From a virus: a stretch of 34,800 nucleotides of DNA. How positions within the stretch are numbered: position 1 is the stretch's first letter; each line of letters starts with the position of its first letter. The stretch is from IMG/VR virus record IMGVR_UViG_3300027801_000080, positions 1 through 34,800 of that record; one strand, written 5' to 3'. The notes under the pieces were generated by a model. That model saw only the letters and a program-made list of their open reading frames with translations. It made no database searches and had not been told where the DNA came from. The position numbers and the translations under genes were made by a program. This document shows, one piece after another, positions 3,001 to 34,800 of the stretch.

Positions 3001-5045
3001 GGCCAAGACCCTGTTGTGTATGTGCCGGTTCCATATTGAACTTCTGCACCACCCATCAAGCCCTGACAAGCCCATCCACCCTCTTCATATGATGCAATGT
3101 CTGGCAAATCCACTTCTTGATTGATATAGAACTCCAACAACACACCCGTGAATGTGCCGGTTGCACCAGCAACAATTGTCGATTTATTGACCGCCGTGAG
3201 GGTGGTTGAAATTGATGGAATCCACCAGCCTGAACGTGAAACGCCGAGTAAAGTTCCGGTTGTTGCCGCCGTTCCTGTATCGCCCAATTGATAATTTTCG
3301 GTTGCACCGACTTTGGGGGTATTTGTTCCAATCATATATTGCACATCGTTGTTCCCAACAATATCCTTTGTTCCATCCATCAATCCCAAGAAGTCTAAGT
3401 TCACGGGCATACCGCTTGGAACATGAACCGATTTGGTTCCCATTTTCTCAATCCAAACCTTCAGAACTCCCTTGCATTCACCTGTGGTTATCCCCGCCAA
3501 TCCTGTCGCATTCGTTGTTCCGATTTGTTCAGCCGCATATATTTTGGCTCGGATGGGATTCGGTCGAACCAAACCTTGTCTGGGTTGACCAATTTTAGTG
3601 CATGAGTTCGGTCGGGTTTGCCCTGAATAGGTTGTAGTATCATATTGAGCCTTCAAATCGGTTTGCTCTTGTGTGTAATAAATCCAATTCATATAGGTTG
3701 TCAATCCATCAACATCGGCATCCCAATTCCATCCCTGCGCCCCAGAACAAAGTGGACCCTGCACGAACTCCGTCAATGGGAATATCTGTGCTGACGACAT
3801 TTCATCTGTATCAACGGCGAGGATTTCAGCCGGTGTGTTTGCTATTCCCTTATCGCCATTCCACACCGCATAACAAGTGTTGCCATTCGAGCCGCCAATG
3901 GTTCGTGCTGGGTCATAGATATAGGGGATGAATGAGCCTCCGGTGAGCAAATACGTTCCATCCTTCAAGAAGCAAGCAAGTGCAGTTCGCATTCGATATG
4001 ATGGACCCCCATATGCCGATGATGATGGGTCGGAATCATTATTGATGAAATCATCTATGTTGTCTGGGTTGTATGTTGGGTCGGTTGTATGATAAGAACC
4101 AACCTTTGCTGGCTTATGGTCGCCGGAGTTCCCTAATTGTTTGTAAATAACCGCCCCGCCTTCTCGGTTCGGCGATTGGTCATAGCGAGTCATTCCCTCG
4201 TCATAGAAGTTAAAATATGCGCCGGAGTTCCCTGCGCCGGTTTCGATGGTTGCACCATCCCATTGCCCCTTCACTATGTCGCTGGTGGCGGTATTTCCAG
4301 ATTGAGAATCCCTCATTTGGTTGTTATCCAATAACAATGGCATGAAAATTGTTGCACACATTTTGCTTGAGGTTGGAATCGCCGCTTTGTTTGCCGCATC
4401 CTGTCTTGGGTCAGCATTTGCCGGTGGCCAAGCACTTGTATCGGGTTCGATAAGGCCAGCAGGCAAGAATGAATACGAGGCTGCATTTTCGTCAAATCCA
4501 GCAACGTATGCACCGAATCCGTGATTCACATATCCATCCAACCAATCGGCAAAGTCTTGCATGGTGGCAAATACAGGATATGGACCCGATGATGCTAAGG
4601 TTGCTGGATTCATTCCATCATTCATCGACATGGCTCTGTGCCTGTCGGATGCACCATATCCAGCCGAGCCTGTTGCCAGAATCCCATCTGCGCTGGGTCC
4701 AATGAATCTCCATTCGGTTTTTGTTCCATCCTCGTGGGTGAGAACGCATCGTGCATCAAGTGTGCCGCTGCCGATAATTTCAAGTGATGGAGTTCCAGAT
4801 GGTGCTGACCCATCGAATCCAATCATCTCGACACGCAGACCAGCAGTATTGGCCTCATCCATCAAACCTCGCCCTTCATCTGCGATTGTATCGGGTCCAA
4901 ATGTTGACCGGAATAAAACGGGGTCAACGGTCAATCCGCCAACGCCATCATTCTTGATATATGCTGGCCACCATCGTTGAACTTCACATAGACCATTCTT
5001 CTGTCTTGAATAGACGAAGGTTATTTTCTGTGTTGTTGATGCCAT
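81..5045 (-). CDS. Giant PKD-domain tail/adhesion protein (1654 aa)
   Basis: Probably a tail-tip or receptor-binding structural protein. Two PKD-type beta-sandwich domains are visible near the C-terminus (about residues 1342-1435 and 1436-1524), each with the FDFGDG / FNFGDG motif and a terminal H-(S/T)-Y...G-x-Y segment. A roughly 130-residue C-terminal domain follows, with no name I recognise. Around residues 1080-1265 the sequence resembles a concanavalin/LamG-like sandwich. The N-terminal two thirds is Gly, Asn, Tyr and Trp rich, typical of exposed fibres. The ATG at 5045 overlaps the tape-measure stop (TGATG), implying translational coupling. PKD domains mediate surface and glycan contacts in archaeal and bacterial exoproteins; the host-recognition role is inferred from the fold and from its place after the tape measure. 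Confidence 0.85.
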   Translation of the reverse strand: MASTTQKITFVYSRQKNGLCEVQRWWPAYIKNDGVGGLTVDPVLFRSTFGPDTIADEGRGLMDEANTAGLRVEMIGFDGSAPSGTPSLEIIGSGTLDARCVLTHEDGTKTEWRFIGPSADGILATGSAGYGASDRHRAMSMNDGMNPATLASSGPYPVFATMQDFADWLDGYVNHGFGAYVAGFDENAASYSFLPAGLIEPDTSAWPPANADPRQDAANKAAIPTSSKMCATIFMPLLLDNNQMRDSQSGNTATSDIVKGQWDGATIETGAGNSGAYFNFYDEGMTRYDQSPNREGGAVIYKQLGNSGDHKPAKVGSYHTTDPTYNPDNIDDFINNDSDPSSSAYGGPSYRMRTALACFLKDGTYLLTGGSFIPYIYDPARTIGGSNGNTCYAVWNGDKGIANTPAEILAVDTDEMSSAQIFPLTEFVQGPLCSGAQGWNWDADVDGLTTYMNWIYYTQEQTDLKAQYDTTTYSGQTRPNSCTKIGQPRQGLVRPNPIRAKIYAAEQIGTTNATGLAGITTGECKGVLKVWIEKMGTKSVHVPSGMPVNLDFLGLMDGTKDIVGNNDVQYMIGTNTPKVGATENYQLGDTGTAATTGTLLGVSRSGWWIPSISTTLTAVNKSTIVAGATGTFTGVLLEFYINQEVDLPDIASYEEGGWACQGLMGGAEVQYGTGTYTTGSWPYQPLNDPTNGTLGGTGQKYSPNAKNKYNIPAAQFDGKNALPFYSFPTGLGWNAGWNQAGQNVPTAAGHDYRHPTVAVNSPQATWVSDFSGYQDDQQITPRGLSIVAADDSRYLMTPTAQGIGGGMLRLPAPPNFGLADYYYSPTEVLHLDDGTNAPIYGDFSGYFAYGPLDVAAADSSIFKSDTTDARWRSKSMVMPLYSYMENRTGDSGFDKTLPSSWRVGRNRPYPIHERIGTKGGYGPLSGLNYWAINNANAAHSSNRPQVGEETIMTGLAEIGCSPIWLDLTIRAWWPTQTDRMTLIEFDTGAPSMYHGRHAFTTRGTAMAESMRSGFLPRSQGGSSSNRPEWTSWESMIINSQVSQHIGNTELFIWGGSKTFDSTGFDAAAWKNTLTNPANGWIFNSAMGSNNVGWGNMSNGYGTGTPTTISEGYHTIRTTFDEEGMLLNIDGTTIGKDLNVNNPVWGFAIQMSNAGGAGARASTSPIIDPNNYYLFPSGMAYNKSQADLQIDEMVVRQIPSLPMTPFPVDTITQQVAGVGKYTALSIEADNISVNAGMNVRVSICPVSANVGGREIEGGTPYTGFSNMDCGFVGGYGSVDLSTLPADAITNGFVIRFLFFTPTASDPSLQPVNWSSTPIVRAWTLEYDLSPTSTIACTGNTFNGDTVAPIDTKVGHIVSFRGTATTTDIDRTMSSVRFNFGDGVSTDWLPFTDQTLQSNTFDTAHSYLTTGTYSATLEVRDDVGNLATSAALSVVVANAPPVAILRAVPSLVRAGDVCTLDATDSFDVNAGGSLTSYTFDFGDGSGTITQGTPTAQHTYAAAGEYRATLTVLDADSAVSQTASSIVKCLPATLIVPLVFNTKPRAFNRTRSAEIGMTPVLDAVYPEMTDTGNRSDTFSLSGMFLKSTANSDIGFVEELLLTGALVEFLYENVDYVGNPSGKVFTGRITSFDYERQGGEHGQTPYTITLVREAGLGV

Positions 5046-8697: not shown

Positions 8698-10138
8698 GAG
8701 ATTCCAATAATTCTTGCATGGGATGGTTCATACCGATTCTGGATTCAATCAAATCGTGGAACTGACGAGTTATCAAATCCCAATCGAGATTTTCGACCAC
8801 GAACTTGCGAGCCGCTTTGCCTCTTTTTATACGTTCAATCGGAGATTGGTGAAGTTCAATCAAGGTATCGGCCAACGCTTCAATGTCAACCAGCCCCAAA
8901 TCGACACCCCATCTCGGACCCGTTATCGAATCGGAACACGGCACGAGCCAGCCTCTTTCATTATTGAGTCCAATAAGTTCTGGACCCGTTGAATTATCTG
9001 GGAGGATTATCGGGATTCCGACTCCCATTGCTTCTGCCGATGGGATTCCAAATCCTTCTCCACCTGTTGCCAGCACATGAGCATCCGAGCAACCTAATAG
9101 ATTGGCGATATCCTCACGACTTATTCCATGAAGTGGATTGCTTGAACCATCGGAGAACATGACATTCCCAACGAGTTCATATTGCTTGATGAGTTCTGGC
9201 AGTTTCCAACCGCCCTGATTCATTTGGTCAAGAGGGTCGCCGCAATGCAAAATTATACCAATGGCATTATCATCTCCCAATTTATCAAGAGCAATTCTCA
9301 ACGCCCTCAAGAGTCTTGGAATCTGCTTGCGATTGGTGTTGCGCCCGATTGAACTCAAGACGGTCTCCCATTTGATTCCCAATTTGCCCCTCATTATCTC
9401 TTTGTCCGTGAGCGATAGAGGTTTGAATGTATCAATGTCAACGCCGTGATGAATCATTGGAAAGTCGTCGTCGTTATCCAAATTGAATCGGTCAAGGTCA
9501 GGCATTTTCAAGTTCTCATGTCCATTTCCATCTGGTCGGTATTTGGCCACGAACTCCTTGAACTGCTGGCGACCGAACTCGCTCATCCATAGAGGGGTGT
9601 GGGTGTGCGCCAGAATAGGTGTCCATTGGTTTGAAATAGGAACTCCGTCGATTGGAAAATATCCAATGTATGGAACTCCAGCCTTGTTTGTCGATTGAAC
9701 CATGTGGCCACAAAACCAGCAATCAACAAGGCTCAAATAAACATCAGGCTCAACGGTTTGAAGGTGATAGTCCAAGACGGTTGGGCTGTTTTCAACGCCG
9801 ATTTGAAGAGGTTCTGATGCACCGAATTGAAGTCCACAGTGTTTCAATATCCATCCTTCTTCGTGTTTGAAATCCTCGCCGTTGTAATCCCAACCTATGA
9901 CATGAACTTCATGTCCATAATCTGCAATCAATCGTTTGATAATTTCACGGCTGACAACCGCATAGCCCGTTGGTCGGAGGGGTTGCTCTGAACCCCATAA
10001 TATCCTCGCCATAAAAGACTCGAAGCCCTCGAACCTCTTCAAGCCTTTGGCGAGAACGTGAGATTGAGATTGATTTGGAGGATGCGCTTTGAGATAGAAC
10101 CTGAAACAGATGGGGAGTTCACGCACCCTCCAAATCAT
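8669..10138 (-). CDS. GT-B glycosyltransferase (family 4-like)
   Basis: Predicted to transfer a sugar from an activated donor. The C-terminal half carries the GT4 signature GGEGFGIPSAEAMGVGIP, with the two Glu of the E-x7-E donor-binding motif, then STGPELIG. The N-terminal Rossmann half begins near residue 43 with ARILWGSEQPLRPTGY, a usual start of this family (MRILW...). The ATG at 10138 is preferred because an ATTAAATAGG box lies 22 nt upstream, giving a leaderless start; ATG 10012 is an alternative that removes 42 unusual basic residues. Likely targets are virion proteins or host surface glycans. It is placed between a LamG protein and tail genes, which fits glycosylation of tail or receptor components. 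Confidence 0.88.
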   Translation of the reverse strand: MIWRVRELPICFRFYLKAHPPNQSQSHVLAKGLKRFEGFESFMARILWGSEQPLRPTGYAVVSREIIKRLIADYGHEVHVIGWDYNGEDFKHEEGWILKHCGLQFGASEPLQIGVENSPTVLDYHLQTVEPDVYLSLVDCWFCGHMVQSTNKAGVPYIGYFPIDGVPISNQWTPILAHTHTPLWMSEFGRQQFKEFVAKYRPDGNGHENLKMPDLDRFNLDNDDDFPMIHHGVDIDTFKPLSLTDKEIMRGKLGIKWETVLSSIGRNTNRKQIPRLLRALRIALDKLGDDNAIGIILHCGDPLDQMNQGGWKLPELIKQYELVGNVMFSDGSSNPLHGISREDIANLLGCSDAHVLATGGEGFGIPSAEAMGVGIPIILPDNSTGPELIGLNNERGWLVPCSDSITGPRWGVDLGLVDIEALADTLIELHQSPIERIKRGKAARKFVVENLDWDLITRQFHDLIESRIGMNHPMQELLESRAGGEEPVE

Positions 10139-11810: not shown

Positions 11811-12515
11811 TCACGATTCACGTTCTCGGTTTATGTTGGTATCGAACTCAATATGTTCGCAATCGCCTTCGACTTCTAATCCAGCCTGCTCTCGACCAAT
11901 CAGCATTCTGAATCTCTTCACTTCTGATTTGGATAACTTCGCACCATTTTCCATTTTGAATAACATGGTGTCGATATCGTCTTTGTTCATTCTTTGCGGA
12001 CCCGAATTGTTGTTCGTGCCTCGTGCCTCTCGCAATCGTTGTTGCCTTCGCTTGCGCCTTCGCTTCTTGTTCCTTGTCATATCGTCGTTTCCATGCACCT
12101 CGAACTTCGCCCCAGATTTACCTGCTGCAGTCCAAATTGATTCAGTTCCGTCTTCGAGCGATTGCTGATGCTCTTGATAGTGTTCTTTGCGATGGCACGA
12201 TGCACACACCACATCACACTTCTCAATCTCCTCCATGATTCGAGCCTTTGCATATCCACCAGACACCATCCCAGATACAAGAGATTCTTTCTTCGTTGGG
12301 TCTTGGTGGTGGAACTCCATAGCCCAAGCGTTGTCTTTGCCACTTAGTCCACATCTGGAACAAAACAGGCTCTCTTTAAGCAGCCTCATCCATTCACGGA
12401 TGCTCTTTTTCCTGACGGCGACTTCTTTGACTCGATTGTTCTTATTTTGCTCATACCATCTCTTATGATATGCTTTGGAATATGCAGCCCGTTTGATTGG
12501 GTCCTTAATCGGCAC
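11811..12515 (-). CDS. HNH endonuclease
   Basis: Predicted metal-dependent DNA nuclease of the HNH/beta-beta-alpha-metal type. Cys-x2-Cys (CSRCGLSG) precedes MEFHHQDP, the His-His core, and the second half is CDVVCASCHRKEH, giving a Zn-stabilised HNH fold. A very basic tract (NKKRRRKRRQQRLREARG) and a helical acidic tail follow. The GTG at 12515 (PIKDPIKRAAYSKAY...) is chosen because a CTTAACCCC promoter lies 25 nt upstream and because the frame further upstream would overlap the structured RNA and the next gene. It could be a free-standing homing nuclease or act in packaging; most HK97-type packaging HNH genes lie next to terL, which this one does not. Confidence 0.85.
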   Translation of the reverse strand: MPIKDPIKRAAYSKAYHKRWYEQNKNNRVKEVAVRKKSIREWMRLLKESLFCSRCGLSGKDNAWAMEFHHQDPTKKESLVSGMVSGGYAKARIMEEIEKCDVVCASCHRKEHYQEHQQSLEDGTESIWTAAGKSGAKFEVHGNDDMTRNKKRRRKRRQQRLREARGTNNNSGPQRMNKDDIDTMLFKMENGAKLSKSEVKRFRMLIGREQAGLEVEGDCEHIEFDTNINRERES

Positions 12516-13040: not shown

Positions 13041-13098
13041 GCTATTGTTCCAAATGATTTTCACGTTCAGGAATCGACACCTTATCGAGACCGATACT

Positions 13099-14139: not shown

Positions 14140-14655
14140 TCATTCGCCCCATCTCAATTCCACCGTGTAATCGGTGCGATATCCGATACAGTTTCCAGCA
14201 TCTCCAGAGGGTCCACATTCAGGCTCAAAATACCGAACAGGTTTGGATTCATCTGACCTTGTAATTCTGGCATATTGATATGCACCATTGCCAGCAGGTT
14301 CCAATCCAGCCGATGGGAACGTGAGAACGCCGTTGTTCATCACCACCAAGAACTTGGCCATCATCTCCCAGCATTTCACACGGGTTGGTGCGAACAAACA
14401 CACACGACCGAACCATTGAGAAGTCTTCGCAATCGTTGTCGATGTTGAATCGAAGAATGCTTCACTTGTCAATCCAATCATGGGTTGAATTGCGATTTGA
14501 TATGTCTTTTGCTTTTTGTATTCGAGCCATTCGGGATTTACAACAGGTGTCCAGACGCCATCTGGTGAAACCATATTGGCTTCAATAAGGTTGGCGAGAG
14601 TAGTGTGTGGGTCAATCGACGGCAGACCTGTATCTCCGATTGCCAAACGTATCAC
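14140..14655 (-). CDS. Neck / tail-completion protein candidate
   Basis: A 171-aa protein coupled to the head-tail connector gene: its GTG at 14655 overlaps the upstream TGA (GTGA). It lies in the head-to-tail junction block, where siphoviruses encode head-closure or tail-terminator proteins. It is a mixed alpha/beta protein with RVKCWEMMAKFLVVMNNGVL in the middle, and a Cys-containing C-terminal region (PECGPSGDAGNCIGY) ending YTVELRWGE, a beta-strand ending usual in tail terminators. The exact identity cannot be decided without structure comparison. Confidence 0.6.
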   Translation of the reverse strand: MIRLAIGDTGLPSIDPHTTLANLIEANMVSPDGVWTPVVNPEWLEYKKQKTYQIAIQPMIGLTSEAFFDSTSTTIAKTSQWFGRVCLFAPTRVKCWEMMAKFLVVMNNGVLTFPSAGLEPAGNGAYQYARITRSDESKPVRYFEPECGPSGDAGNCIGYRTDYTVELRWGE

Positions 14656-16511: not shown

Positions 16512-18080
16512 TCAAGCACCTCTGCTTGAGATTTGGTTTTCCAACCATGATGCAAGACCGTTCATGCCATGTGATACTACAGGCTGTGGGTCGTGGCGTG
16601 TGATGGACTTGTTCACTTTAGGAACTGTTGCCCCGCCAATGGATTTTGGGTTTGCTGATAATTCAGCAGCAGGAACTTCTCCAACAAGTGCTGCGACTCG
16701 CTTGGAGACTTCTGCTTCAAGTGCGGCTTCTGCGATTGCAGCATCCTTCTCGGTTTTCAGGGCTTCTAATTGAGCCTTGAGGGAATTGATTTCATCATCA
16801 ACAGCAACGTGAGATTCGATTGTTGACAAACGAGCCTCGACACCTGTTAATGCCTTCACGACTTCAATAAGTATTGCTGTGGTTGTTGGGTCAGATGGTG
16901 CAGATTCTTCTTCTGTTGCTTCTGCAACCTCTTCAACGACTTCTGCTGGGAGTTCTTCTGCTGGGAGTTCTTCTGCTTCTTCTGTTGCTTCTTCTGTTGC
17001 CTTAACTACAACCTCTTCTGTTGATTCTTCAACAGTTTTGATTTCGAGTTCAGGTGTAGTAATAGAGTCTTCAACAACAACAAGAGATTCTTGTTCTGCG
17101 GTTTCGATGATTGTTTCGTCAGTCATAGTGTTCGCCTTCGCTGTATATCCTATGTCTTCATCTATTGGGGTATTAAGCGATTCGGTGCATTCACTTTTGG
17201 AGGATTGAGGTTCAGAGATAGGTGAAATCGCATCGAGTCTATCGTTTAGGCTTGAAATTAAGTCTTTCAATTCCGAGATTGTTGTCGATTCGTCGATTGC
17301 CAAATCCTGTTCGGTATCGGCCTCGATAACCTTTGAACCGCAATTGCACGTTCCGCAACCTCCGCAACCAACCGATTCTTCGACAACCATATCATCATCA
17401 TCATCCTCGTCAGCAATATCCTCATCATCGGAATACTCCTTCTCGAATACTATTGCGAATGAATCTCCTAAGTCTTCATATCCAATTATGTGCTTTTCGA
17501 CTTGGAATAGTGCGTTGGGTGAGGCTGGAACATCAACCACGCTGGTCTCAAGCCAATCAATATCGGTGAAGGTCAGATAACATGAATCCTCGTCAGCACA
17601 TTCTTTGATAGCGGCTTTGGCAATGAATCCAATAGAGAACGCACGAAGCATTCCCTTGCGTATTTTCCTGACGATGGCCTTCTCGCCACCATCAATCAAG
17701 GCTCGCCCGATTGGAACTTCGCCTTCGATACCATCCCACATACCCATCTCAACATCGAGCATTCGCCCAATGACCCCAGCATCCTTGCTGTGGTTGTATA
17801 GTATTACAGGATTCTTTGAGTAGTTCCCCCAAGCGTTTAGAATTGCTTCTGGGGCGACGAGTTCACTGTGGCGGTCAAGCATATCGGCATTGCCAACATA
17901 CACGGGTCCACGCACTATCACATCATCTGGGTCAGGAGTATATCCATCAACGGCCTTGTTCGATGTGTCAATCTCGAATGGAATCTCAAAGTTCATTTTC
18001 ATAGACACCTGACGGCTATTGCCACCACGAGCCTTGTAGTCGTCAATATCAAGCACCACAGCACGAATAGGTTGACTCAT
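16512..18080 (-). CDS. Prohead protease fused to scaffold domain
   Basis: Residues about 1-215 are an HK97-type (S78) prohead protease with likely catalytic His97 (ILYNHSKD), Ser149 (RAFSIGF) and Glu178 (WLETSVVDVPASPN). Residues about 216-250 are an acidic stretch followed by a Cys cluster (CGGCGTCNCG), and residues about 319-522 are Glu/Thr/Val-rich with a coiled coil (SLKAQLEALKTEKDAAIAE), as in capsid scaffolds. The protease would digest its own scaffold during maturation. The ATG at 18080 is 24 nt after a class II promoter. An internal ATG at 17126 has a GATATACAGC box 23 nt upstream and could produce the scaffold alone, as with lambda C/Nu3. Confidence 0.9.
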   Translation of the reverse strand: MSQPIRAVVLDIDDYKARGGNSRQVSMKMNFEIPFEIDTSNKAVDGYTPDPDDVIVRGPVYVGNADMLDRHSELVAPEAILNAWGNYSKNPVILYNHSKDAGVIGRMLDVEMGMWDGIEGEVPIGRALIDGGEKAIVRKIRKGMLRAFSIGFIAKAAIKECADEDSCYLTFTDIDWLETSVVDVPASPNALFQVEKHIIGYEDLGDSFAIVFEKEYSDDEDIADEDDDDDMVVEESVGCGGCGTCNCGSKVIEADTEQDLAIDESTTISELKDLISSLNDRLDAISPISEPQSSKSECTESLNTPIDEDIGYTAKANTMTDETIIETAEQESLVVVEDSITTPELEIKTVEESTEEVVVKATEEATEEAEELPAEELPAEVVEEVAEATEEESAPSDPTTTAILIEVVKALTGVEARLSTIESHVAVDDEINSLKAQLEALKTEKDAAIAEAALEAEVSKRVAALVGEVPAAELSANPKSIGGATVPKVNKSITRHDPQPVVSHGMNGLASWLENQISSRGA

Positions 18081-18133: not shown

Positions 18134-18493
18134 TCAACGGTTGAACAATCCAACATCATAAGTTATCAGCATTGAGTTCCAATTCATTGCGTGGAACTCA
18201 TTAAGAAGTGCAGTAGCGAACTCTTGGCTGACTACGGGGATGGTATACTGAACCCAATCTGGCGACCATGCTACAACATTCCAATGTGCTTGTTCATATC
18301 TGACGAACTCTGGATGGTCTTTTGGCAACCATCCGACTTGGAGGCTGTTGTTCTGGAACGCCCAATCGACCGAATCAAAGACAGGTGTTGGGGTTTGGCA
18401 TGGCGTTTGCATCTCGAATGCTTCGTGGGTCATATACACCCCTGTGGGTTGCCCCTTATCAATCCTTTGGCGTATCAATGTCTTGAGAACCAT
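18134..18493 (-). CDS. Hypothetical protein (119 aa)
   Basis: Not recognised. The N-terminal MVLKTLIRQRIDKGQPTGVY leads into a mixed fold with many aromatic residues (NVVAWSPDWVQYT, AMNWNSML). No Cys cluster or membrane segment. ATG at 18493 overlaps the end of the upstream gene by 19 bases, so translation is probably coupled. It lies between the portal-side genes and the protease-capsid operon and looks like an accessory insertion rather than a structural protein. Confidence 0.65.
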   Translation of the reverse strand: MVLKTLIRQRIDKGQPTGVYMTHEAFEMQTPCQTPTPVFDSVDWAFQNNSLQVGWLPKDHPEFVRYEQAHWNVVAWSPDWVQYTIPVVSQEFATALLNEFHAMNWNSMLITYDVGLFNR

Positions 18494-18975
18494 GCCGGTG
18501 CTGGTCGGCCATTCGCCCATTTGACGATTTTAGATTTGCCCTCGATGTAGTATCGGCGATATGCAACAACCGCACTTTCGTGCTTGAACTCGTCTGGCAT
18601 TGCTTGAACAAACGGTGTCAGTTCACCGTCTGGAATATGATGAGCCATTGAAATTAACTGTTCGATTGGCAATTGACAAGCGTGAACTTTTCCATATCGG
18701 TTGGAGTATTCTTGGCATATCCACCAGCCGTGTTGCGCCAGCCAAATGAAATTGCTTCGAGTCGATTGCGCCCAGATGGTGCAAGGATGATTCCGGTGGG
18801 TTGGCTTGTATGGAGTTCCAGATTTAGTCAAAGGCATCTCCGATTCATCAACCCCCACCAGATACAAACAGGTCGTCAGGATTTGGGCTGACTCCAGCGC
18901 CATTTTGATTGTATGAACGTCAGCGAGGTTTTCAGCGGCTTGGCGTGGGTCAGTGTCAAGTATGAATATGTTCAT
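18475..18975 (-). CDS. Conserved phage protein, DNA-glycosylase-annotated family
   Basis: Belongs to a family I recognise from marine phages with the motif order MNIF-LDTDP, HTIKMALESAQ, YKPTHRNHPCTIWAQS, YSNRYGKVH, AMPDEF, AYRRYY, KWANGRPAPAWF. Members are sometimes annotated as pyrimidine-dimer DNA glycosylases; the experimental basis is unknown to me, so the repair function is tentative. The invariant His/Lys/Tyr residues of these motifs all appear intact. The start at 18975 lies 30 nt downstream of a TTTAAGTATC box, so it may be leaderless. It is divergent from the plus-strand gene at 19054 and inserted between the portal and protease modules. Confidence 0.78.
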   Translation of the reverse strand: MNIFILDTDPRQAAENLADVHTIKMALESAQILTTCLYLVGVDESEMPLTKSGTPYKPTHRNHPCTIWAQSTRSNFIWLAQHGWWICQEYSNRYGKVHACQLPIEQLISMAHHIPDGELTPFVQAMPDEFKHESAVVAYRRYYIEGKSKIVKWANGRPAPAWFSRH

Positions 18976-19752: not shown

Positions 19753-22178
19753 CAATTGCCACCTTCACGCTCTGGGAGGGTTTCAATTGCTGGAACCAAC
19801 ACATCTGATGCTGGCACGGTCGAAGCAGGTTCTCCATCTCGTGCAACGAACGTGCAACGGCAATTTGGATGGGCTGGAATCACGGAGTTCGAGTCTTCGA
19901 TTTTATACACAGCACCTTCATACGGCGCACATAAATCCTTGTCGGTTTGGGTGTCGATTTCAACGAGTCGCTCAACATATTTGAATCCGGCTCGGCGCAA
20001 TCCTGAAATGTGGGAGTTCTCAACGACTCGACGAGTCTCGGTTCGAGCGATTCGATTGTAAAAGTATTTTGGATATTTTGAACCAGATGGGTCAATGAGT
20101 TCTTTCATTCGGCCAGAAGCCCATTTCCACGATTGGCCTTCTCCAACCATCTGTTCAAAGACGGTGGTGATATTAGCCCTATGTGAGCCAAGAGTTCGAC
20201 GAAGGGCTGGTATGACCCATCTCCTTCGCCAGAATGCAATAGCAGCAATGTCGTCGGCCATCAATGCGCTCGCCATTCCGGTCGGTGCAAGAGTCAATCC
20301 CAGAGATTCTCCATACGTTGTAGTCAGCAAGAGTTCAGCCTCGACAATTTGCTTTTCCAGCGTTGTTGCGATATTGGCATCAATACGGCCAAATGCGACT
20401 TCGATGTCGTCGAGATTGATTTTTGCCTTGCGACGATATGACTTCACAGGTATGTCGATTTCAATATCGGGAATCTCAACCGCTTCATCTCCTGCTGCGA
20501 ACAAATCATTTAGGCTGGCGAGAACATCGGTTGCGAATGTTTGTTGATTGTCTTCAAATGTTGCATCGAGCAAAGTCTGGGAATTGCTGATGAGCGATTC
20601 ATATTCGCCAGATGCTTTGACTCTTCGAGAACCCATATCGAGCCGAATATCATTTGATAGTTCTGGTGCTGGATGGATATCGGTCATTGCTGGATGCTCG
20701 CCAGCATATTTTCCTTCACCATCTGGTGTTGAATCGGGAGGGAATAATTCTTCAAGAGATGGAGGTGTTGTTGGATTTTCCTCCGCAGAATCCTCCGCAC
20801 CCATGTTAATGGATAACTTTGGAGATAAAAAGAATGGGTCGTCGGCTTCTGGCTCGCTTAGACGTTCAAGACCGAGCATCATACGGCCTTCATTGATGCT
20901 GACTATGCTCTCCTGTCGCAAATGGCTGATTGCCAATGATTCGGCCTTGCGGGTTTCAGCAAGTTCCTTCTCACGGCTTGGGCGAACTGTGATGAAATCG
21001 AATTGCCAATCGGTGATTCCCAGCAAGGGGAGAAGTCGATTGTTAATGACGGCTTCAATTCGACGATGGAATGATTCAATCACATCATACCACGCATCCA
21101 ATTGCTGTTCGGGATTCGACATTTTGCCTGTCTGAACCCAGCCCAATTTCATCGGTGGGATTCCAAACACAGCACATATCTCTTCACGATAGTAATAGAG
21201 CAAATCCAATTGCGCCCCTTCACGGGTTGAATCGAGAACTCGGTGCATATTGAATCCCGTTCCACCATTGACGGCGACCAGACCGAATGGCGATTTGCCT
21301 CCGGTCAATTGTTGTTCAAGGAGAGCGAGCATTGCTTTCATCTCGCCGTTGGATATATCGCCAACATTCAGGATGGTCTTGGGGAGAGTTCCTGTATAGA
21401 GTTCGTTGAGATAATTTGACAGATTCATGTGTCCTGAAATTACGTTCAATAAAGAGATAAGCGGAGATGTTCCATACGCTCGGTCGTGTTTGAACTTCGA
21501 TATGTGAAGCACTTTGTCAGATGAGAATTGACGAGTCTCGCCATTCAGTTTTTGCTCATATGCCATTCTTGGTGGGGCTGGTCGTCGATTGCCAGCAAGG
21601 AGAGTCATTTGTTCAGATGGGATAGGCCATACGCTCACGAGGTCGCCTCCATATGTCCACTTGACACCTTTGCCACCCGTGTTCTTGTCTTCGGACCCAT
21701 CGAGTTCCAGATAGGCATCTCCGAACAAAGCCAAATCATAGATGAGGGATTCCAACCATTCGTTGCCATTATCGTCAGGATTAGGATTCTTGAACCATTC
21801 TCGTGCCTTCTTCAATTGGTCAGCATCTCCGGTCTCTTCGCCAACGGGGAGGATGAACTCATATCCATTCCCCAGACAATCATCGACAGTTCTGCGGAGG
21901 ATAGCATTGACGACTTCTGACTTCAATGAAATATCTCTCAAGAGGGAATATGACACCAGCGTATCAGTTCCGCTGCCTTCTGCTGCTCGCCCCTTCTTGG
22001 TGGCTTGACCGATTCTTGACATTGATGCCAAAGCCTTGCCATCCCAAAGCAATCCAGATTCAGGCTGGTTCGCTTCATTCACCAAATCGGTGAATCGTTG
22101 AACATCAGCAGGGTCGGGCGCATCGGTTCTTTGACGGCCAAAAACACGCTCACGGATGCTGCGCTTTCGCTCGGACAT
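19752..22178 (-). CDS. Portal protein fused to MuF-type head protein
   Basis: The first roughly 490 residues are a portal (DNA entry ring), with phrases such as LYDLALFGDAYLELD, DKVLHISKFKHDRAYGTSPL and YREEICAVFGIPPMKLG. The C-terminal part from about residue 690 is a MuF-type minor head domain ending YFYNRIARTETRRVVENSH...LCAPYEGAVYKI...IPAHPNCRCTFVA, whose Cys/His/Arg motif is typical. The two are usually separate genes; here they are one 808-aa protein with an acidic Pro-rich linker. ATG 22178 is chosen over the TTG at 22217 because an AATTAAACC box lies 22 nt upstream of it. It is followed by the gp10-like gene in a TGATG overlap. Confidence 0.92.
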   Translation of the reverse strand: MSERKRSIRERVFGRQRTDAPDPADVQRFTDLVNEANQPESGLLWDGKALASMSRIGQATKKGRAAEGSGTDTLVSYSLLRDISLKSEVVNAILRRTVDDCLGNGYEFILPVGEETGDADQLKKAREWFKNPNPDDNGNEWLESLIYDLALFGDAYLELDGSEDKNTGGKGVKWTYGGDLVSVWPIPSEQMTLLAGNRRPAPPRMAYEQKLNGETRQFSSDKVLHISKFKHDRAYGTSPLISLLNVISGHMNLSNYLNELYTGTLPKTILNVGDISNGEMKAMLALLEQQLTGGKSPFGLVAVNGGTGFNMHRVLDSTREGAQLDLLYYYREEICAVFGIPPMKLGWVQTGKMSNPEQQLDAWYDVIESFHRRIEAVINNRLLPLLGITDWQFDFITVRPSREKELAETRKAESLAISHLRQESIVSINEGRMMLGLERLSEPEADDPFFLSPKLSINMGAEDSAEENPTTPPSLEELFPPDSTPDGEGKYAGEHPAMTDIHPAPELSNDIRLDMGSRRVKASGEYESLISNSQTLLDATFEDNQQTFATDVLASLNDLFAAGDEAVEIPDIEIDIPVKSYRRKAKINLDDIEVAFGRIDANIATTLEKQIVEAELLLTTTYGESLGLTLAPTGMASALMADDIAAIAFWRRRWVIPALRRTLGSHRANITTVFEQMVGEGQSWKWASGRMKELIDPSGSKYPKYFYNRIARTETRRVVENSHISGLRRAGFKYVERLVEIDTQTDKDLCAPYEGAVYKIEDSNSVIPAHPNCRCTFVARDGEPASTVPASDVLVPAIETLPEREGGN

Positions 22179-23300: not shown

Positions 23301-23792
23301 TTATTCTGACAAGTTCTCGATGTCAAGCGATTCCAATTCGTCGATTGCATCCAATTCGTCAACGGTTGGATTTTCGATGGTTTGAGAATTAGCCTCTTCT
23401 CCACGTTCTGCTGCTGGGTCCGTATCGAGGCCAATAAGACCCAATGCCACAGCCTGTCGCTCTGCTTCGAGAATCTGCTCGTGCTGCTGGTTTTTGGTTT
23501 CGACCATTCGGAGATGTGCGGCCTGATTTTGAATATCGGTGTTTTGATGTTCCCAATACTCTGGCATCGAACCAATCTCTTGATTCTGTTCGTTTTTCCA
23601 CAGTTCAAGAATAGATGTGAGGATGAGCAAAGCGGGTCCACCAATGATGGCTATGAGGGTTGTATAATCCTTGATGTTGACAAGAACTGCAGATGAATGC
23701 AGACCATACCAAATGACAAGACAGGCGAAGCCCATCCATGCCAGCACGACAGGAACTCCCACCAGAAGCATCAGGCGGTCGTTGAAGGACAT
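23301..23792 (-). CDS. Two-helix membrane protein with acidic tail
   Basis: A 163-aa protein with two membrane helices (about residues 8-30, LMLLVGVPVVLAWMGFACLV, and about 40-62, TTLIAIIGGPALLILTSILE) followed by a long hydrophilic Gln/Glu-rich cytoplasmic or external tail. ATG 23792 is preferred because AAGAAGGGA precedes it; the longer frame starts inside the upstream gene. No enzymatic motif. Its place in a run of three small membrane proteins points to a membrane remodelling or lysis function. Confidence 0.7.
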   Translation of the reverse strand: MSFNDRLMLLVGVPVVLAWMGFACLVIWYGLHSSAVLVNIKDYTTLIAIIGGPALLILTSILELWKNEQNQEIGSMPEYWEHQNTDIQNQAAHLRMVETKNQQHEQILEAERQAVALGLIGLDTDPAAERGEEANSQTIENPTVDELDAIDELESLDIENLSE

Positions 23793-24055: not shown

Positions 24056-24970
24056 TTATTCCGATTCAGGAACTTTGGCAATTTGATTTTCATGTTTGGT
24101 TTCATCTGTATTGAACCATTCGCCATCCTTCTCAAGCCAAATGCTAAGGCAAAACGAATAGGTTTCGTTTGTTATCGCACCATCCCAAGTCCATGTTTTC
24201 CAATCTGGGTCTTGATATGTTGTATTGTAGCCGGTGAAAATTGAGCGAACAACATCTCCAGATTCATTCTTGATGGTTATATCGACTTCGATATGGTGAG
24301 TCAGGTCGCAGTTCAAATCGGCATCCCATCGAACCGTTGCCAATGTTTTGTTGTCCTCTTCTGTCCAGATGATTTCACTATGATAGAATAGTGCTGATAA
24401 ATTGCAGGCTGGTTCGGTTTCATTGCCAGATTCATTGCCAGATTCAGTGCCGTTATCTGGATTTTGATATGAGTCATATTCACATGAACCATCATCATCT
24501 GTTGCTGTCTCATTGTAATTGTTTGCTGCTGGGTCCGTGCAACCATAGATTGGTTCTGGTGGAGGCGGTGGTGGTGGTGGATATTGGCACGAGCCATCAT
24601 CCTCATTGGCCATTGAATCGTAATTCTCGGCGGTCGAATCCATACAGCCCCAGAATATGGTGATTACAGGCTCGTCTTGACGTTCTGCTTCGTCTATATC
24701 ATCCGAACCCATCAAGTCGATTCCAAGCATCTCCAGACCCCCTCCGCCTATGACAAGAGCAATGATGGGAATGAGAGTCATAAGGAGAGCCTTGAACTTC
24801 TTGGCTTGCTCATTAGCCCTATCCAAGACTCCTTGTTTTTCATTCGACCAATTCATCTCACCGTCGTCGAGCAAATCGGCGAGAACCGCTTTGGCATCTC
24901 TCCCAGATGCTTCTGCAAGCAATTCAGCACGGGCTGACAGTTCTGTTAAATCAACCTCATCGTCGCCCAT
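24056..24970 (-). CDS. Membrane-anchored surface protein with Cys-Asp repeats
   Basis: Residues about 1-60 are a helical cytoplasmic part, about 64-84 a membrane helix (ALLMTLIPIIALVIGGGGLE), then an extracellular region with two GC-x-D...DDGSC repeats (GCMDSTAENYDSMANEDDGS and GCTDPAANNYNETATDDDGS) separated by eight prolines. These repeats belong to a small Asp/Asn-rich family frequent in marine bacterial and Marine Group II archaeal exoproteins. Many Asn-x-Ser/Thr sequons follow (NGTESGNESGNETE), consistent with archaeal N-glycosylation. The rest is a beta-sandwich-like domain. ATG 24970 is 22 nt after a class II promoter; the longer frame would cover that promoter and the ncRNA. It might be a superinfection or host-surface factor. 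Confidence 0.82.
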   Translation of the reverse strand: MGDDEVDLTELSARAELLAEASGRDAKAVLADLLDDGEMNWSNEKQGVLDRANEQAKKFKALLMTLIPIIALVIGGGGLEMLGIDLMGSDDIDEAERQDEPVITIFWGCMDSTAENYDSMANEDDGSCQYPPPPPPPPEPIYGCTDPAANNYNETATDDDGSCEYDSYQNPDNGTESGNESGNETEPACNLSALFYHSEIIWTEEDNKTLATVRWDADLNCDLTHHIEVDITIKNESGDVVRSIFTGYNTTYQDPDWKTWTWDGAITNETYSFCLSIWLEKDGEWFNTDETKHENQIAKVPESE

Positions 24971-25613: not shown

Positions 25614-27145
25614 GCACCAAAGGTTCTCATGGTTGGCAATCCGCCACCCTCATCCATCATCTCGATAGCCAGCAACGCATACAGCAGGGCGTGGAATGCG
25701 TGGTCGTCGCCATCTCGACCATACTTGGTCAAGGTTTGCCCTCGCAATTGTCTCTGGCTTTTCATGTCGTCTTCGACCGAACTGTTGATGGCGCACCATT
25801 CATGGAGAACCCATTCCAAATCTCGGTCTTTGAATGGGAGAGAGATTTCCTTGTTCTTGATAATTTCAAGCGTTTTTTCCACATACGTTGTCCTATCGAC
25901 AACGGCCATATTGATTATGTTGCGGTTGTTATCTCTTCGCTTGAACTGATATGGAGTCATTGGTCGAGATGAATAATAGCACGAGCAAACACGGTCGGCG
26001 AACTCGTCTTGGAGTTCCTTTGTTTGTCTTGCACCATATCCGATATCGCACACGACCTTCACGCAATTGTATCGGAGAATTAGTTCTTTGATTCTGGCGA
26101 CTTCATCCAATTCTCCATCGCCTCTCGCCTCAATCCGTATTGCATTCAATATCTCTTTTCCATCCTTGCTGCAAATCACGATTGTCGTTGTCAATCCCCA
26201 ATCAATTCCCATGACCGATTCTGCTGGAATCGCCAGAGACTCCGCTGGGAACTTATTGGGGTCAATACAATTCAACGCAACATCGAACGTGAGAGGTTTT
26301 GCAGAACCGGCAAAGAACTCGCCAAGCACTTCGTTTTGAAATCGACGAGGCGAGTATGTTCCTCGCTTTTGCTCTATATCGGCGTCTGACACGGATGGAT
26401 GAATCAATTGGGTTATGTGATAGCCATAGATGTTCTGAACTTGCGTTGCACCGCCGTTTTGATGCACCCATTGGCTGCCATCCCATTCGCCCTTCGTGCT
26501 GGATTCCCAAAGCCTCCAGAACTCCGAGCCTTGTTCACGGGCTGTGCCAGATACAAGCACTATTTTGAAGTTCGATTGGGTGAGCATCTCCATCAGCATC
26601 GGGAGAACGTCTGGGTCGCAATCCTGATATTCGTCAATGCAACACAGGTCTGCGGCGATACCAAGAAGCCCATGTGCATCTCCCCAATTTGAATAGGCAT
26701 AGAAGTGATTCAAAGACCTTGCACCAACATCGAATGTCTGGTGGCTCACGCTTGTCTTGATACGCTGCTTTAGAAGGCATCCATTGTTCACCGAACTCAT
26801 CATAGCCCCATTGAACCGTTCCTCGACGAATCGGCTCACTTGCGGTTGTCTGGGCGCAGTATAGACCGCATTGAAGTATGGAATGTTGAGCAACCCATAC
26901 AGGAGAATGTTGCAGATGGTTTCAGTTTTTTCAACCTTGCGAGAACACTTGAGAACAATCACTTTCGTTATGTCATTGCGCTCGGTTGCACCAAAGTGGC
27001 GATAGACTTCTTGGAGATACGGTCGCTCTCCCAGCAAGAATGCTTTGCCGTTGATGGTTCTGAAATAAGAAGCCCAACGGTCTGGATAGAGAGCAATCTC
27101 CCTCGCTTGTTCGCCTGTGAGAACAGCATTGCCAGCCTTGCTCAT
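25610..27145 (-). CDS. Terminase large subunit
   Basis: The packaging motor ATPase and headful/site nuclease. In the 511-aa form, a degenerate Walker A (KCSRKVEKT, Lys73) follows IVL, Walker B is CCIDEYQD (Asp171-Glu172), and a motif-III-like SGTAREQGSEF follows. The RNase-H-like nuclease has Asp315 (MGIDWGLTT), Asp367 (VVCDIGYGARQ) and Asp480/481 (GRDGDDHAFHALLY). The Walker A lacks the usual Gly-Lys-Thr, having Glu-Lys-Thr, a variant I know from some terminases. Start: ATG 27145 (MSKAGNAVL) or TTG 27175; neither has a good Shine-Dalgarno. It probably shares a transcript with the DUF6011 gene upstream. Confidence 0.93.
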   Translation of the reverse strand: MSKAGNAVLTGEQAREIALYPDRWASYFRTINGKAFLLGERPYLQEVYRHFGATERNDITKVIVLKCSRKVEKTETICNILLYGLLNIPYFNAVYTAPRQPQVSRFVEERFNGAMMSSVNNGCLLKQRIKTSVSHQTFDVGARSLNHFYAYSNWGDAHGLLGIAADLCCIDEYQDCDPDVLPMLMEMLTQSNFKIVLVSGTAREQGSEFWRLWESSTKGEWDGSQWVHQNGGATQVQNIYGYHITQLIHPSVSDADIEQKRGTYSPRRFQNEVLGEFFAGSAKPLTFDVALNCIDPNKFPAESLAIPAESVMGIDWGLTTTIVICSKDGKEILNAIRIEARGDGELDEVARIKELILRYNCVKVVCDIGYGARQTKELQDEFADRVCSCYYSSRPMTPYQFKRRDNNRNIINMAVVDRTTYVEKTLEIIKNKEISLPFKDRDLEWVLHEWCAINSSVEDDMKSQRQLRGQTLTKYGRDGDDHAFHALLYALLAIEMMDEGGGLPTMRTFGA

Positions 27146-29688: not shown

Positions 29689-30489
29689 TCATATGTCGAT
29701 TGAAACCTTTGTCGGGTCTTTGAGGATTTGATTTGACAGTTCAAGAATAATTTTATTTGTATTCTGGAGATTGGTTTTGGTCTGTGGAGTATGCAGCATC
29801 CAATTATCGGAGTCAATATCTGGTCGAAGGCAAATCGCCATGAATCCAGATTCGCTCGGTTTGATTTCATTCATCGAGCCGATTGAAACCAATTCTGGTG
29901 CAATCGACTTTTTGGAAAACCATTCTTCTTCAACATCGTGAGTATCTATCCATTCGCACCAACCATTTGTCATTAGTGCTGGGTCAATTGCGACAAACGA
30001 CTTCAATGGAATTATCAATTGGTCAGGAACAAGAACCTTCTTTGCTGGTCGGGTGAATTGACCGGCGGTTGAATCGAGAACCCAGCCGTCGCACATGGCA
30101 ACAACATGACCATCATATCCTGTTCCTTCGACTTCTTGTTCGTGGTGGATGGCGAGGCAATATGGCCAAATCCTCGTCTCCTTCTTTTTTCGACCGCCAC
30201 GCTGGGGATGCCGATTGACCTGATGTTTTGGAATCCTTTTGACTATGGCTTCTCCACTTTTGGCTCGTGTGAAGTGATGGTTCCATCCATAAACATCACA
30301 GGCCATTGACTTTGCATCTGGGAATCCCATCTCATTCAAAGAGTATGCAATGCCCTCGCTCACTTGATAGCAACAATCTGGAACTATGCCTGAAATCTGT
30401 GCGAGGTGAGCAGCATTCAACACAGCCTCGATTCTCTTGTCAACATAATCAATCTCGATGAAATTGAATGGAATTATTTTTGAACTCAC
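29689..30489 (-). CDS. Transglutaminase-like cysteine protein
   Basis: The order Cys (VPDCCYQVSEGIAYSLNEMG), His (GYDGHVVAMC) and Asp (GWVLDSTAGQF) matches the transglutaminase/papain-like catalytic triad, with the usual G-x-x-H-V-V and W-V-x-D motifs. It might be a protease, amidase or protein cross-linker; the target is unknown. A Lys/Arg-rich patch (HPQRGGRKKKETRI) lies between Cys and His. GTG 30489 is favoured because GGAGG lies 9 nt upstream and its class I box is 43 nt away, like the other leadered genes; ATG 30510 (7 residues longer) is possible. Confidence 0.75.
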   Translation of the reverse strand: MSSKIIPFNFIEIDYVDKRIEAVLNAAHLAQISGIVPDCCYQVSEGIAYSLNEMGFPDAKSMACDVYGWNHHFTRAKSGEAIVKRIPKHQVNRHPQRGGRKKKETRIWPYCLAIHHEQEVEGTGYDGHVVAMCDGWVLDSTAGQFTRPAKKVLVPDQLIIPLKSFVAIDPALMTNGWCEWIDTHDVEEEWFSKKSIAPELVSIGSMNEIKPSESGFMAICLRPDIDSDNWMLHTPQTKTNLQNTNKIILELSNQILKDPTKVSIDI

Positions 30490-30548: not shown

Positions 30549-30868
30549 TATGCCGACCATAGCAATCGACAAGCGTTGTTATGTCCTGACTCCGCATCGT
30601 GGTCGAATACCAAATGTTCCAATTGGCCATCTGGGTTGCAGCAACGAGTCATATCCATAATGACTTTTGGATTCTCGACTTGATGTTTGAATGCTTCTTG
30701 CATTGCTGAACTGATTCCAGCAATAATATCCTCGAATGTGCTGGTGATTTTGACTTCACCGATGTCGTCGTCTTCGTTTATGATTCTCACGTTGTCGCCA
30801 GATTGAATCAACAACATTATCGGCTTCAATACCGTTTCGCCCAGAACACTGTTCAAATCGGAATCCAT
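30545..30868 (-). CDS. Hypothetical protein (107 aa)
   Basis: Not recognised. An acidic alpha/beta protein with NVRIINEDDDIGEVKITSTF in the middle and a helical part (IIAGISSAMQEAFKHQ), then a CC pair (MTRCCNPDGQ) and a His/Cys-containing tail. It begins 3 nt after the stop of the 98-aa gene and is likely coupled to it. No membrane segment or signal peptide. Confidence 0.62.
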   Translation of the reverse strand: MDSDLNSVLGETVLKPIMLLIQSGDNVRIINEDDDIGEVKITSTFEDIIAGISSAMQEAFKHQVENPKVIMDMTRCCNPDGQLEHLVFDHDAESGHNNACRLLWSAY

Positions 30869-32405: not shown

Positions 32406-32936
32406 TCAAGAACGGTCAGTGAATTGCTGGCGACCTGCCTTCATTCCACGAGTATCGTTGGTGATTCCCTTTAGAAGTGTTTCAGCAAAAGCGAATCTCT
32501 CGGAGTCAAAGTCAATTCCAAGTAGTGTAGCCTGTGTTGCGACATCACCGTTGATTAGTGATTCGGACATTTCCTGTGCTTGCTTTAGAGAAGTGATTTT
32601 GTTCTGTTTCATCAATAGTAATAGAGCAAGGGATTTTGTTCCCAATTTCTGTGTGATGATTGCGTCTGGGTTATCAAGACCAACTGTTGCATCTCCGGTG
32701 ATGTTGTCTGTTGCACCTGTGATGTTGTCTATGATGGTCAAGTCAACAGCGTTGGTTTGCTTTTCTGCAGGTGCTTCATTAACAGTAGCACGGTCGGTCT
32801 TCTTCTGCGAAGTAGCCCATGATGCAACGGCGCAACCTGCGCCTGTTGACATAACAGCAGGAACCAAAGTTCCTGTTGCCCTATCAAGGGTTAGTTCGTT
32901 TGTCTGGCTCATTTCTAATTCTTCAGTTTGGCTCAT
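32406..32936 (-). CDS. Hypothetical protein (176 aa)
   Basis: Not recognised. Soluble and Thr/Asn/Ala-rich, starting MSQTEELEMSQTNELTLDRA, with an Ile/Thr/Asp-Asn middle (IIDNITGATDNITGDATVGL) and a helical C-terminal half (SLALLLLMKQNKITSLKQAQ). ATG 32936 is chosen because AAGGAG lies upstream and the class I box at 32972 would then leave a 16-nt leader, as for other leadered genes. An ATG at 32957 would be 24 nt from the box. It lies next to the repeat block. Confidence 0.65.
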   Translation of the reverse strand: MSQTEELEMSQTNELTLDRATGTLVPAVMSTGAGCAVASWATSQKKTDRATVNEAPAEKQTNAVDLTIIDNITGATDNITGDATVGLDNPDAIITQKLGTKSLALLLLMKQNKITSLKQAQEMSESLINGDVATQATLLGIDFDSERFAFAETLLKGITNDTRGMKAGRQQFTDRS

Positions 32937-32971
32937 ATTGGCGGTCTCCTTATCCATTGGTAGCACTATGC

Positions 32972-33059: not shown

Positions 33060-33828
33060 ATAATCTGTCAATTTTGACAAACCCCCTTTAGTGAGTATCG
33101 AATCCAATATCTGTTGTCGATAACCTCGAAGAATAATCGACAAATCAATCTGGTGCTGGTTTTGTGCTGGAGATGGACAACGTGCGATTGAGGGTAATTC
33201 GCAGCACGGATATATTGAAGTCAATACCTGTTTTTTGAGAATAGTGTCGATGGGATTAAAACGCTTTTTAGCAAGAAAAAACAGGCTCGCAGTAGCACGG
33301 TTATTTTGTCTGGGTCCGGCGTGTTTCACTTGGTCGTCTGGAATGGTGTCGATAGGCTATGTGTGATATTGAACTCAATACCAAATCGCACGTTCTGTTC
33401 CTCTATCCATTCCTCCTTGCTGGATAATCTGCAGCACCAGATTCTTTGGTCGTCTGAAAAAGTGTCGATGCCCCTTTTGGTGAGAACGTCTGGAAAACAA
33501 CAGGCTCGCAGTATAGCGTTTTTTGTTCGTCGATGCGAGGGTGTGATTGGGTTTTTAATTTGGTCGTCTGAAAAACCGTCGATTGATTGTTTGCTGCGCT
33601 TGGGCTGGTGGCTGGAATAGTGCTGCGACTCTTGCTGGATAATTCCCAGCACCGGATTCTGGGATTCTCACGTTCCCTGACCCGAATAAAAGACAGGCTC
33701 TCGGTCATGCTTTTTTTTCTGTCGATGCCTTGTTAATTGCTATCTCACGTTGTAAATCGGTGCTGCGATATATTGAGTTCAATACCACTTGCTGCTGACA
33801 GCCTGCTGCTGCGAATCGCATATGCGGT
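33060..33828. repeat. Repeat-rich non-coding block, candidate origin/control
   Basis: About 770 bp with no convincing gene. Families seen: a TATTGA-NN-TCAATA palindrome at 33213-33226, 33367-33380 and 33771-33784; TTGGTCGTCTG followed by A-run and GTCGAT at 33330-33354, 33446-33469 and 33560-33583 (about 115 bp apart); CAGGCTCGCAGTA at about 33282 and 33501 with a variant at 33693; CTTGCTGGATAAT...CAGCACC.GATTCT at 33416-33447 and 33631-33660; several long T-runs. Spaced palindromes, iterons and A/T tracts resemble a replication origin or partition site; an array of small RNA genes is the alternative. ORFs here on either strand just translate the repeats. Confidence 0.55.
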
Positions 33829-34456: not shown

Positions 34457-34729
34457 CTATCCATGCCAATCATCAACCGATTTGACCAACCTGTATAGGA
34501 TGGTTGTCTGTTGATTTAACTGCGCTCTGACGACGAATCTGTGGTTCACCCATTCCGTCAATATCATTGCGACTCGTTGACGGGGTTGTTGCATTCTCAA
34601 CCCCCTTCTATCTGGGGATTTGGGGATTCTCATTGCTTCGACTAATTCATCCAAACCGAACTCATCACCAACATTCATTCCCTGTAATGCTTGTTTAATT
34701 TGCATTCGACATTGCTGGTTTCTTGTCAT
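34457..34729 (-). CDS. Small possible DNA-binding protein (90 aa)
   Basis: Starts MTRNQQCRMQIKQALQGMNV; a helical N-terminus, GDEFGLDELVEAMRIPKS, then a basic segment (DRRGLRMQQPRQRVAMILTE) and a beta-hairpin-like end (HRFVVRAQLNQQTTILYRLV). This is a winged-helix-like order (helices then a wing), but the call is tentative. ATG 34729 overlaps the upstream TAA (TAATG). Confidence 0.6.
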   Translation of the reverse strand: MTRNQQCRMQIKQALQGMNVGDEFGLDELVEAMRIPKSPDRRGLRMQQPRQRVAMILTEWVNHRFVVRAQLNQQTTILYRLVKSVDDWHG

Positions 34730-34800
34730 TATGAAAACCACGAATCCATTGTCTTTTGACCGACCGCCACACCGTCTTTGAAATCGGCTAAGAGCGTATC
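34729..34800 (-). CDS. Partial gene end at right edge
   Basis: The last 23 codons of a minus-strand gene enter from the right edge: DTLLADFKDGVAVGQKTMDS, then Trp-Phe-Ser and TAA, which overlaps the ATG of the next gene. Too short to identify. Confidence 0.55.
   Translation of the reverse strand, partial: DTLLADFKDGVAVGQKTMDSWFS

Follow-up and report, generated by a model that had tools for sequence, protein, structure and literature searches.

A 14-bp palindrome recurs across the whole genome of this virus and of close relatives, and its copies in a non-coding repeat block next to a terS-like gene are merely the densest patch of that genome-wide array. Related lineages carry dispersed palindromes of their own. 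Our tentative reading is that each palindrome is bound by a dimer of a DNA-binding protein that the virus itself encodes and whose specificity changes from lineage to lineage, most likely for stoperator-like silencing. We place the chance that this is right a little under even.

The window, i.e. the whole stretch of DNA that was analysed (34.8 kb), matches a segment of the IMG/VR contig G001, 65 kb long, at 99.8% identity. Among its genes, nearly all on one strand, are those of a tailed virus for the large terminase, the portal, the protease, the capsid and the tape measure. Relatives have terminases that are 65-85% identical and reach lengths of up to about 82 kb. In one long relative, G003, we found CobS/CobT-like genes together with an RFC-type clamp loader, a primase-polymerase and an ERCC4/HHH nuclease, the latter three pointing to an archaeal host. 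The family as a whole consists of tailed viruses from the sea that are uncultivated and have replication genes of archaeal type. A search of GTDB contigs found no relative of the large terminase, and no capsid match was found in 319 Poseidoniales genomes. Rfam and tRNA scans of the whole window gave no match. The CobS/CobT-like AAA and VWA genes are kept across the family (L092:721-1890, L092:3158-5470, L082:6-1409), some members encode DNA methyltransferases, and a pyrimidine dimer DNA glycosylase gene (Pfam Pyr_excise) sits amid the structural genes at window positions 18475-18975.

The preliminary description of this DNA reported a block of alternating repeats, with three TATTGA-NN-TCAATA palindromes and three elements about 115 bp apart. 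All reported families are there and exceed chance, with 34 repeated 9-mers, whereas 1000 order-2 Markov simulations from the block average 4.0 and never exceed 15. Elsewhere in the window, comparable repetition is limited to coding sequence of low complexity around 12.6-13.3 kb and 16.3-17 kb. The three palindromes are exact and are joined by a degenerate fourth, while the three elements are exact copies of TTGGTCGTCTG with spacings of 116 and 114. The block and its flanking genes are as follows (palindromes, like the block itself, carry no strand).

33060-33828: non-coding repeat block lying between the terS-like gene and the next gene; its four sites are the densest palindrome cluster
33096-33109: palindrome TATCGAATCCAATA, degenerate, the fourth site of the block
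33213-33226: palindrome TATTGAAGTCAATA (exact TATTGANNTCAATA)
33367-33380: palindrome TATTGAACTCAATA (exact TATTGANNTCAATA)
33771-33784: palindrome TATTGAGTTCAATA (exact TATTGANNTCAATA)
33330-33340, plus strand: TTGGTCGTCTG element copy 1, followed by GTGTCGAT
33446-33456, plus strand: TTGGTCGTCTG element copy 2
33560-33570, plus strand: TTGGTCGTCTG element copy 3
33281-33293, minus strand: ACTGCGAGCCTGT element (ACAGGCTC) copy 1; intergenic, found in relatives too
33500-33512, minus strand: ACTGCGAGCCTGT element (ACAGGCTC) copy 2
33693-33705, minus strand: ACTGCGAGCCTGT element (ACAGGCTC) copy 3, degenerate
33419-33438, plus strand: GCTGGATAATNNNCAGCACC element (GCTGGATAATYNNCAGCACC; GCTGGATAAT family) copy 1
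33634-33653, plus strand: GCTGGATAATNNNCAGCACC element (GCTGGATAATYNNCAGCACC; GCTGGATAAT family) copy 2
32406-32966, minus strand: gene downstream of the block, with homologues 71-76% identical in L002/L004 and L005/L006
33829-34401, minus strand: terS-like gene, 46-73% identical in seven relatives
34457-34741, minus strand: small gene on the upstream side of terS, judged winged-helix-like by eye alone, with homologues in G002, G003 and G004

The terS-like protein is predicted, at low confidence, to be all-helical and has no Pfam or PHROG match; the label terS-like reflects only its place, its conservation and this prediction. The gap that follows terS varies in length: G001 has 862 bp, G002 330 bp, and G005, G007, G008 and G013 have 625-796 bp, so that six of eight genomes fall within 0.3-0.9 kb, while G003 has only 52 bp and G009 80 bp. 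We regard the block as non-coding, since its internal ORFs have no homologues in the seven other long genomes and three relatives (G002, G003 and G009) have a much shorter gap. In the last two, which are close relatives, the block is essentially missing, and it is mostly lineage-specific. Absence of the repeats from close relatives had been named in advance as an argument against a functional array; it holds for the TTGGTCGTCTG and GCTGGATAAT arrays, which this virus alone carries, whereas the palindrome is present in those relatives. GCTGGATAATYNNCAGCACC occurs twice against 0.07 expected (up to three mismatches). On the reverse strand ACAGGCTC reads as an A-tract, CCG, four free positions and TACTGCGAGCCT(G/A), and this element is found three times in the block, once in the equivalent gap of G002 and L002, and also in G003, G005 and G009. 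The form AAAACCG-N4-TACTGCGAGCCT(G/A) is recurrent and intergenic (L086-L090, L091-L095, L096-L100, L002:2840-2887, and the minus strand of window 33281-33705), a possible promoter or packaging element. GTCGAT has about eight copies within the block. Folding gave z = -1.8 on the minus and -0.3 on the plus strand, which makes no case for a structured RNA.

A local reading of the block is right about the repeats but too narrow, as the palindromes are not confined to it. The pattern TATYGRNNYCRATA, which we call class A and which includes the three exact TATTGANNTCAATA copies, has 18 copies in the window, where Markov models (orders 2-4) predict 0.1-0.2. The four class A genomes (65-82 kb) contain 30 (G001), 33 (G002), 36 (G003) and 35 (G009) sites, and a reversed-pattern control gave 0. 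Iterative weight matrices built on whole genomes converged on the same motif with 35-59 sites. Being a 14-bp palindrome, it has equal counts on both strands by symmetry. Its dispersed copies in the window are:

55-68: palindrome TATTGGAGTCAATA
1361-1374: palindrome TATCGGCCTCGATA, within a gene
4439-4452: palindrome TATCGGGTTCGATA, within a gene
8962-8975: palindrome TATTGAGTCCAATA, within a gene
11840-11853: palindrome TATCGAACTCAATA, with a gene start 33 bp downstream
13083-13096: palindrome TATCGAGACCGATA
14574-14587: palindrome TATTGGCTTCAATA, within a gene, at a position common to four relatives
17315-17328: palindrome TATCGGCCTCGATA, within a gene
20372-20385: palindrome TATTGGCATCAATA, within the portal gene
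23423-23436: palindrome TATCGAGGCCAATA, within a gene
24280-24293: palindrome TATCGACTTCGATA, within a gene
26254-26267: palindrome TATTGGGGTCAATA, within the large terminase gene, at a position common to four relatives
29805-29818: palindrome TATCGGAGTCAATA, within a gene
30818-30831: palindrome TATCGGCTTCAATA, within a gene

To evaluate the sites in coding DNA we compared them with random synonymous codons. In G001, G002, G003 and G009 we observe 19, 25, 28 and 26 coding sites against 0.87, 1.28, 1.02 and 0.60, a 20- to 40-fold excess, and this excess over synonymous recoding argues that the DNA word itself is selected. In the same order, 19/30, 25/33, 28/36 and 26/35 of the class A sites fall within long ORFs (98 of 134 in total), which roughly follows the coding fractions of 0.74-0.82 and shows no intergenic preference. 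The longest genes hold several sites each. The codon phase of the sites is biased, at least partly because a stop codon arises in phase 0 (TAT TGA). In five genomes, the four of class A and G011, the intervals between sites vary less than under random placement, with a coefficient of variation of 0.54-0.71 against 0.96 (Fisher combined p ~3e-9). When homologous coding positions were aligned between the four class A genomes, 38 of 52 were occupied in one genome alone and three in all, i.e. sites are gained and lost between relatives while their density is kept.

There is a mild excess of class A sites before gene starts, 23 against 11.7 expected (p=0.002), and the gaps downstream of terS hold nine sites against 1.3 expected. 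The four-site cluster in 690 bp of the block is marginal against uniform placement, p=0.09. In G007, which has a different palindrome (class C, see below), a fraction of 0.33 of the sites lies 30-130 bp before gene starts, against 0.09, and the observed fraction was reached in 0 of 500 simulations. In this genome ATGTTC-N4-GAACAT (L106-L110) precedes several gene starts by about 56-72 bp, in contrast to class A sites. The gene families 0-1-2 lie, for most class A genomes, in site-poor stretches, a pattern noticed post hoc.

Relatives with few or no class A words carry a dispersed palindrome of their own, mostly with the same 14-bp layout. Searching de novo for gapped palindromes dispersed over a genome, we identified class A' (CTATTGNNNNCAATAG; G008, G013, G014), class B (TGTTGANNTCAACA; G011), class C (ATGTTCNNNNGAACAT; G007) and the weaker class D (TACGNNNNNNCGTA; G005, G006, G010). 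Sites of the other classes are few or absent in each member, apart from A and A', whose sequences overlap. The spacing of class D, with its weaker signal and 7-15 sites, is not significantly even. As a control, the same search recovered the dispersed inverted repeats of Streptomyces phage phiC31; it found nothing comparable in lambda and just GC-rich words, e.g. CCTCGAGG, in phiCh1. Ten genomes of the putative host lineage, Poseidoniales, are not enriched in class A, each having 0-8 sites in 1.3-2.2 Mb. A control that pooled palindromes from Poseidoniales loci was discarded because every locus contained 16S rRNA.

The palindromic 14-bp form suggests recognition by a dimeric protein, which we infer to be encoded by the virus. 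Such a sequence-specific protein would bind about one site per 2 kb of viral genome, and the bound dimers would silence it in the manner of stoperators. Sites at a few promoters would serve as operators, with their main cluster in the block beside terS, and those within long operons and genes would act as road-blocks. The outcome might be a repressed or persistent phase, with self/non-self specificity between related viruses, and co-evolution of site and protein would give each lineage its own palindrome. The preliminary description had suggested that the block might be a binding array for a regulator; the data speak for this and extend the putative array to the whole genome and to the relatives. 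The excess upstream of gene starts and the clustering in the terS gap fit such a silencer. No integrase or ParA is among the families listed for 49 G003 proteins, so a silenced or persistent state gains no independent support.

A genome-organising array, in which the dimers would compact, bridge or mark the chromosome of the virus, with regulation secondary, is a credible alternative although probably not the correct one. It could serve segregation, nuclease protection or feeding of the packaging motor. The even spacing, the indifference to genes and the turnover of positions at constant density fit a chromosome organiser equally well, and the several sites in each of the longest genes and the lack of enrichment in Poseidoniales agree with it. 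However, the surplus of sites shortly before gene starts, pronounced in G007, and the clustering downstream of terS do not, nor do the site-poor stretches around families 0-1-2, which include the candidate binding protein described below. We lean slightly towards silencing. The fuller proposal, that an evenly spaced, gene-embedded array organises or marks the whole chromosome through a virus-encoded dimer whose specificity has diverged into at least five classes, seems to us rather unlikely.

The leading candidate for the binder of the palindrome is a conserved protein of 162 residues encoded by gene 2 of G001 (L082:2875-3363) and present in eight of eight long genomes. It is predicted to form a winged helix, a strand-like ITVNLP segment and then two helices, and this C-terminal part may be ribbon-helix-helix-like. 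Foldseek returned only weak winged-helix matches, and the C-terminal part has no Pfam match. The G007 homologue is without this part, yet class C sites are strong in G007, and the predicted third helix is nearly identical between G009 (class A) and G007 (class C). As its presence does not cleanly track site class, we keep this protein as a candidate. The small genes adjacent to terS were rejected as a universal binder: family f14a is found only in G001-G004 and f14b in A', C and weakly in D, with no profile link between the two.

A few temperate phages of bacteria are known to carry dispersed operator arrays. The stoperators of cluster A mycobacteriophages (L5, Bxb1), more than 20 repressor sites over one genome, lie in short intergenic spaces; each is an asymmetric 13-bp site that follows the direction of transcription and is bound by a monomer (PMC6550527, PMC9283540). 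Their consensus is lineage-specific and drifts with the repressor, and most lie off promoters while operators cluster at key promoters (PMC6550527, PMC9283540). The array described here is alike in copy number (20-40 per genome there, 30-36 strict class A sites here) and in a consensus that differs between related lineages (A, A', B, C, D). It is unlike them in consisting of 14-bp palindromes, mostly within genes and evenly spaced, with a strong bias to gene starts only in G007, and in belonging to a virus whose gene set is of archaeal type. The CIRs of phiC31, about 15 palindromes with a mean gap of 2.8 kb by the same de novo method, are dispersed palindromes of similar length and spacing; however, 14 of the 15 lie between genes and only 1/15 within long ORFs, against 98/134 here. 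In Bacillus phage SPbeta the 15-bp SPBRE element, bound by MrpR, is likewise repeated over the phage genome under one viral master repressor, but its sites are few and limited to promoter regions (PMC10516654). The array may work like any of these three, but we do not class it with any of them.

Outside viruses, matS/MatP and Noc-type palindromes organise bacterial chromosomes and are dispersed within genes, and MatP is a ribbon-helix-helix protein. The likeness to our gene-embedded palindromes and to the possible ribbon-helix-helix C-terminus of the candidate is an analogy, and those sites belong to bacterial chromosomes at a much lower density. A short literature search found no report of a dispersed operator array in archaeal viruses. 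Here a whole virus family with replication genes of archaeal type carries a putative array of this kind, within genes, evenly spaced and with lineage-specific words. Its site sequence and a small list of viral DNA-binding proteins offer a testable handle on the control or organisation of the genome, and the palindrome is a simple signature to sort virus lineages, perhaps immunity groups, from metagenomes.

The block might in addition be the pac region of a headful-packaging virus, its other repeats being contacts of the small terminase, which is compatible with the array but quite unlikely. It adjoins the terS-like gene, the downstream gap is of substantial length in most genomes, and the long contigs look circularly permuted, as judged from terminal repeats of 123 bp in G003 and 91 bp in G007 and from the contigs of G005 and G008, which end within a collagen-like repeat gene. 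Against it, the gap is minimal in G003 and G009, and relatives share only the palindrome and one TACTGCGAGCCT element, not the TTGGTCGTCTG and GCTGGATAAT arrays. Recognition of the palindromes by a host protein, or their use as a modification target, we consider improbable. The viral binder is a candidate only, the word differs between virus lineages whose hosts may differ, and methyltransferases are encoded by some members; however, the putative host genomes hold hardly any sites, and selection for 30-60 evenly spaced copies is unexpected for a modification or restriction target. The replication origin proposed in the preliminary description, with the repeat families of this long non-coding stretch as iterons, is very improbable, as the cumulative GC skew of this virus and of three long relatives does not clearly turn at the block, nearly all genes share one direction, the close relatives lack the block, and the palindromes are genome-wide.

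Other repeats were noted in these genomes. TGTCGATT, counted on both strands of G001 including the window, occurs 41 times against 7.9 expected and is missing from G003 and G009, and TCACGTTC occurs 20 times in G001 against 1.75 expected. GGTCC N4 GGACC (G005, G006, G008) and CCGG N5 CCGG (G007) were rejected as arrays, being 9-nt repeats limited to a few kb that we take as the collagen-like gene. Long 9-nt coding-type repeats span several kb in G005, G006, G007 and G008, and in G001 the collagen-like protein is encoded by gene 10 (L082:5770-7629).
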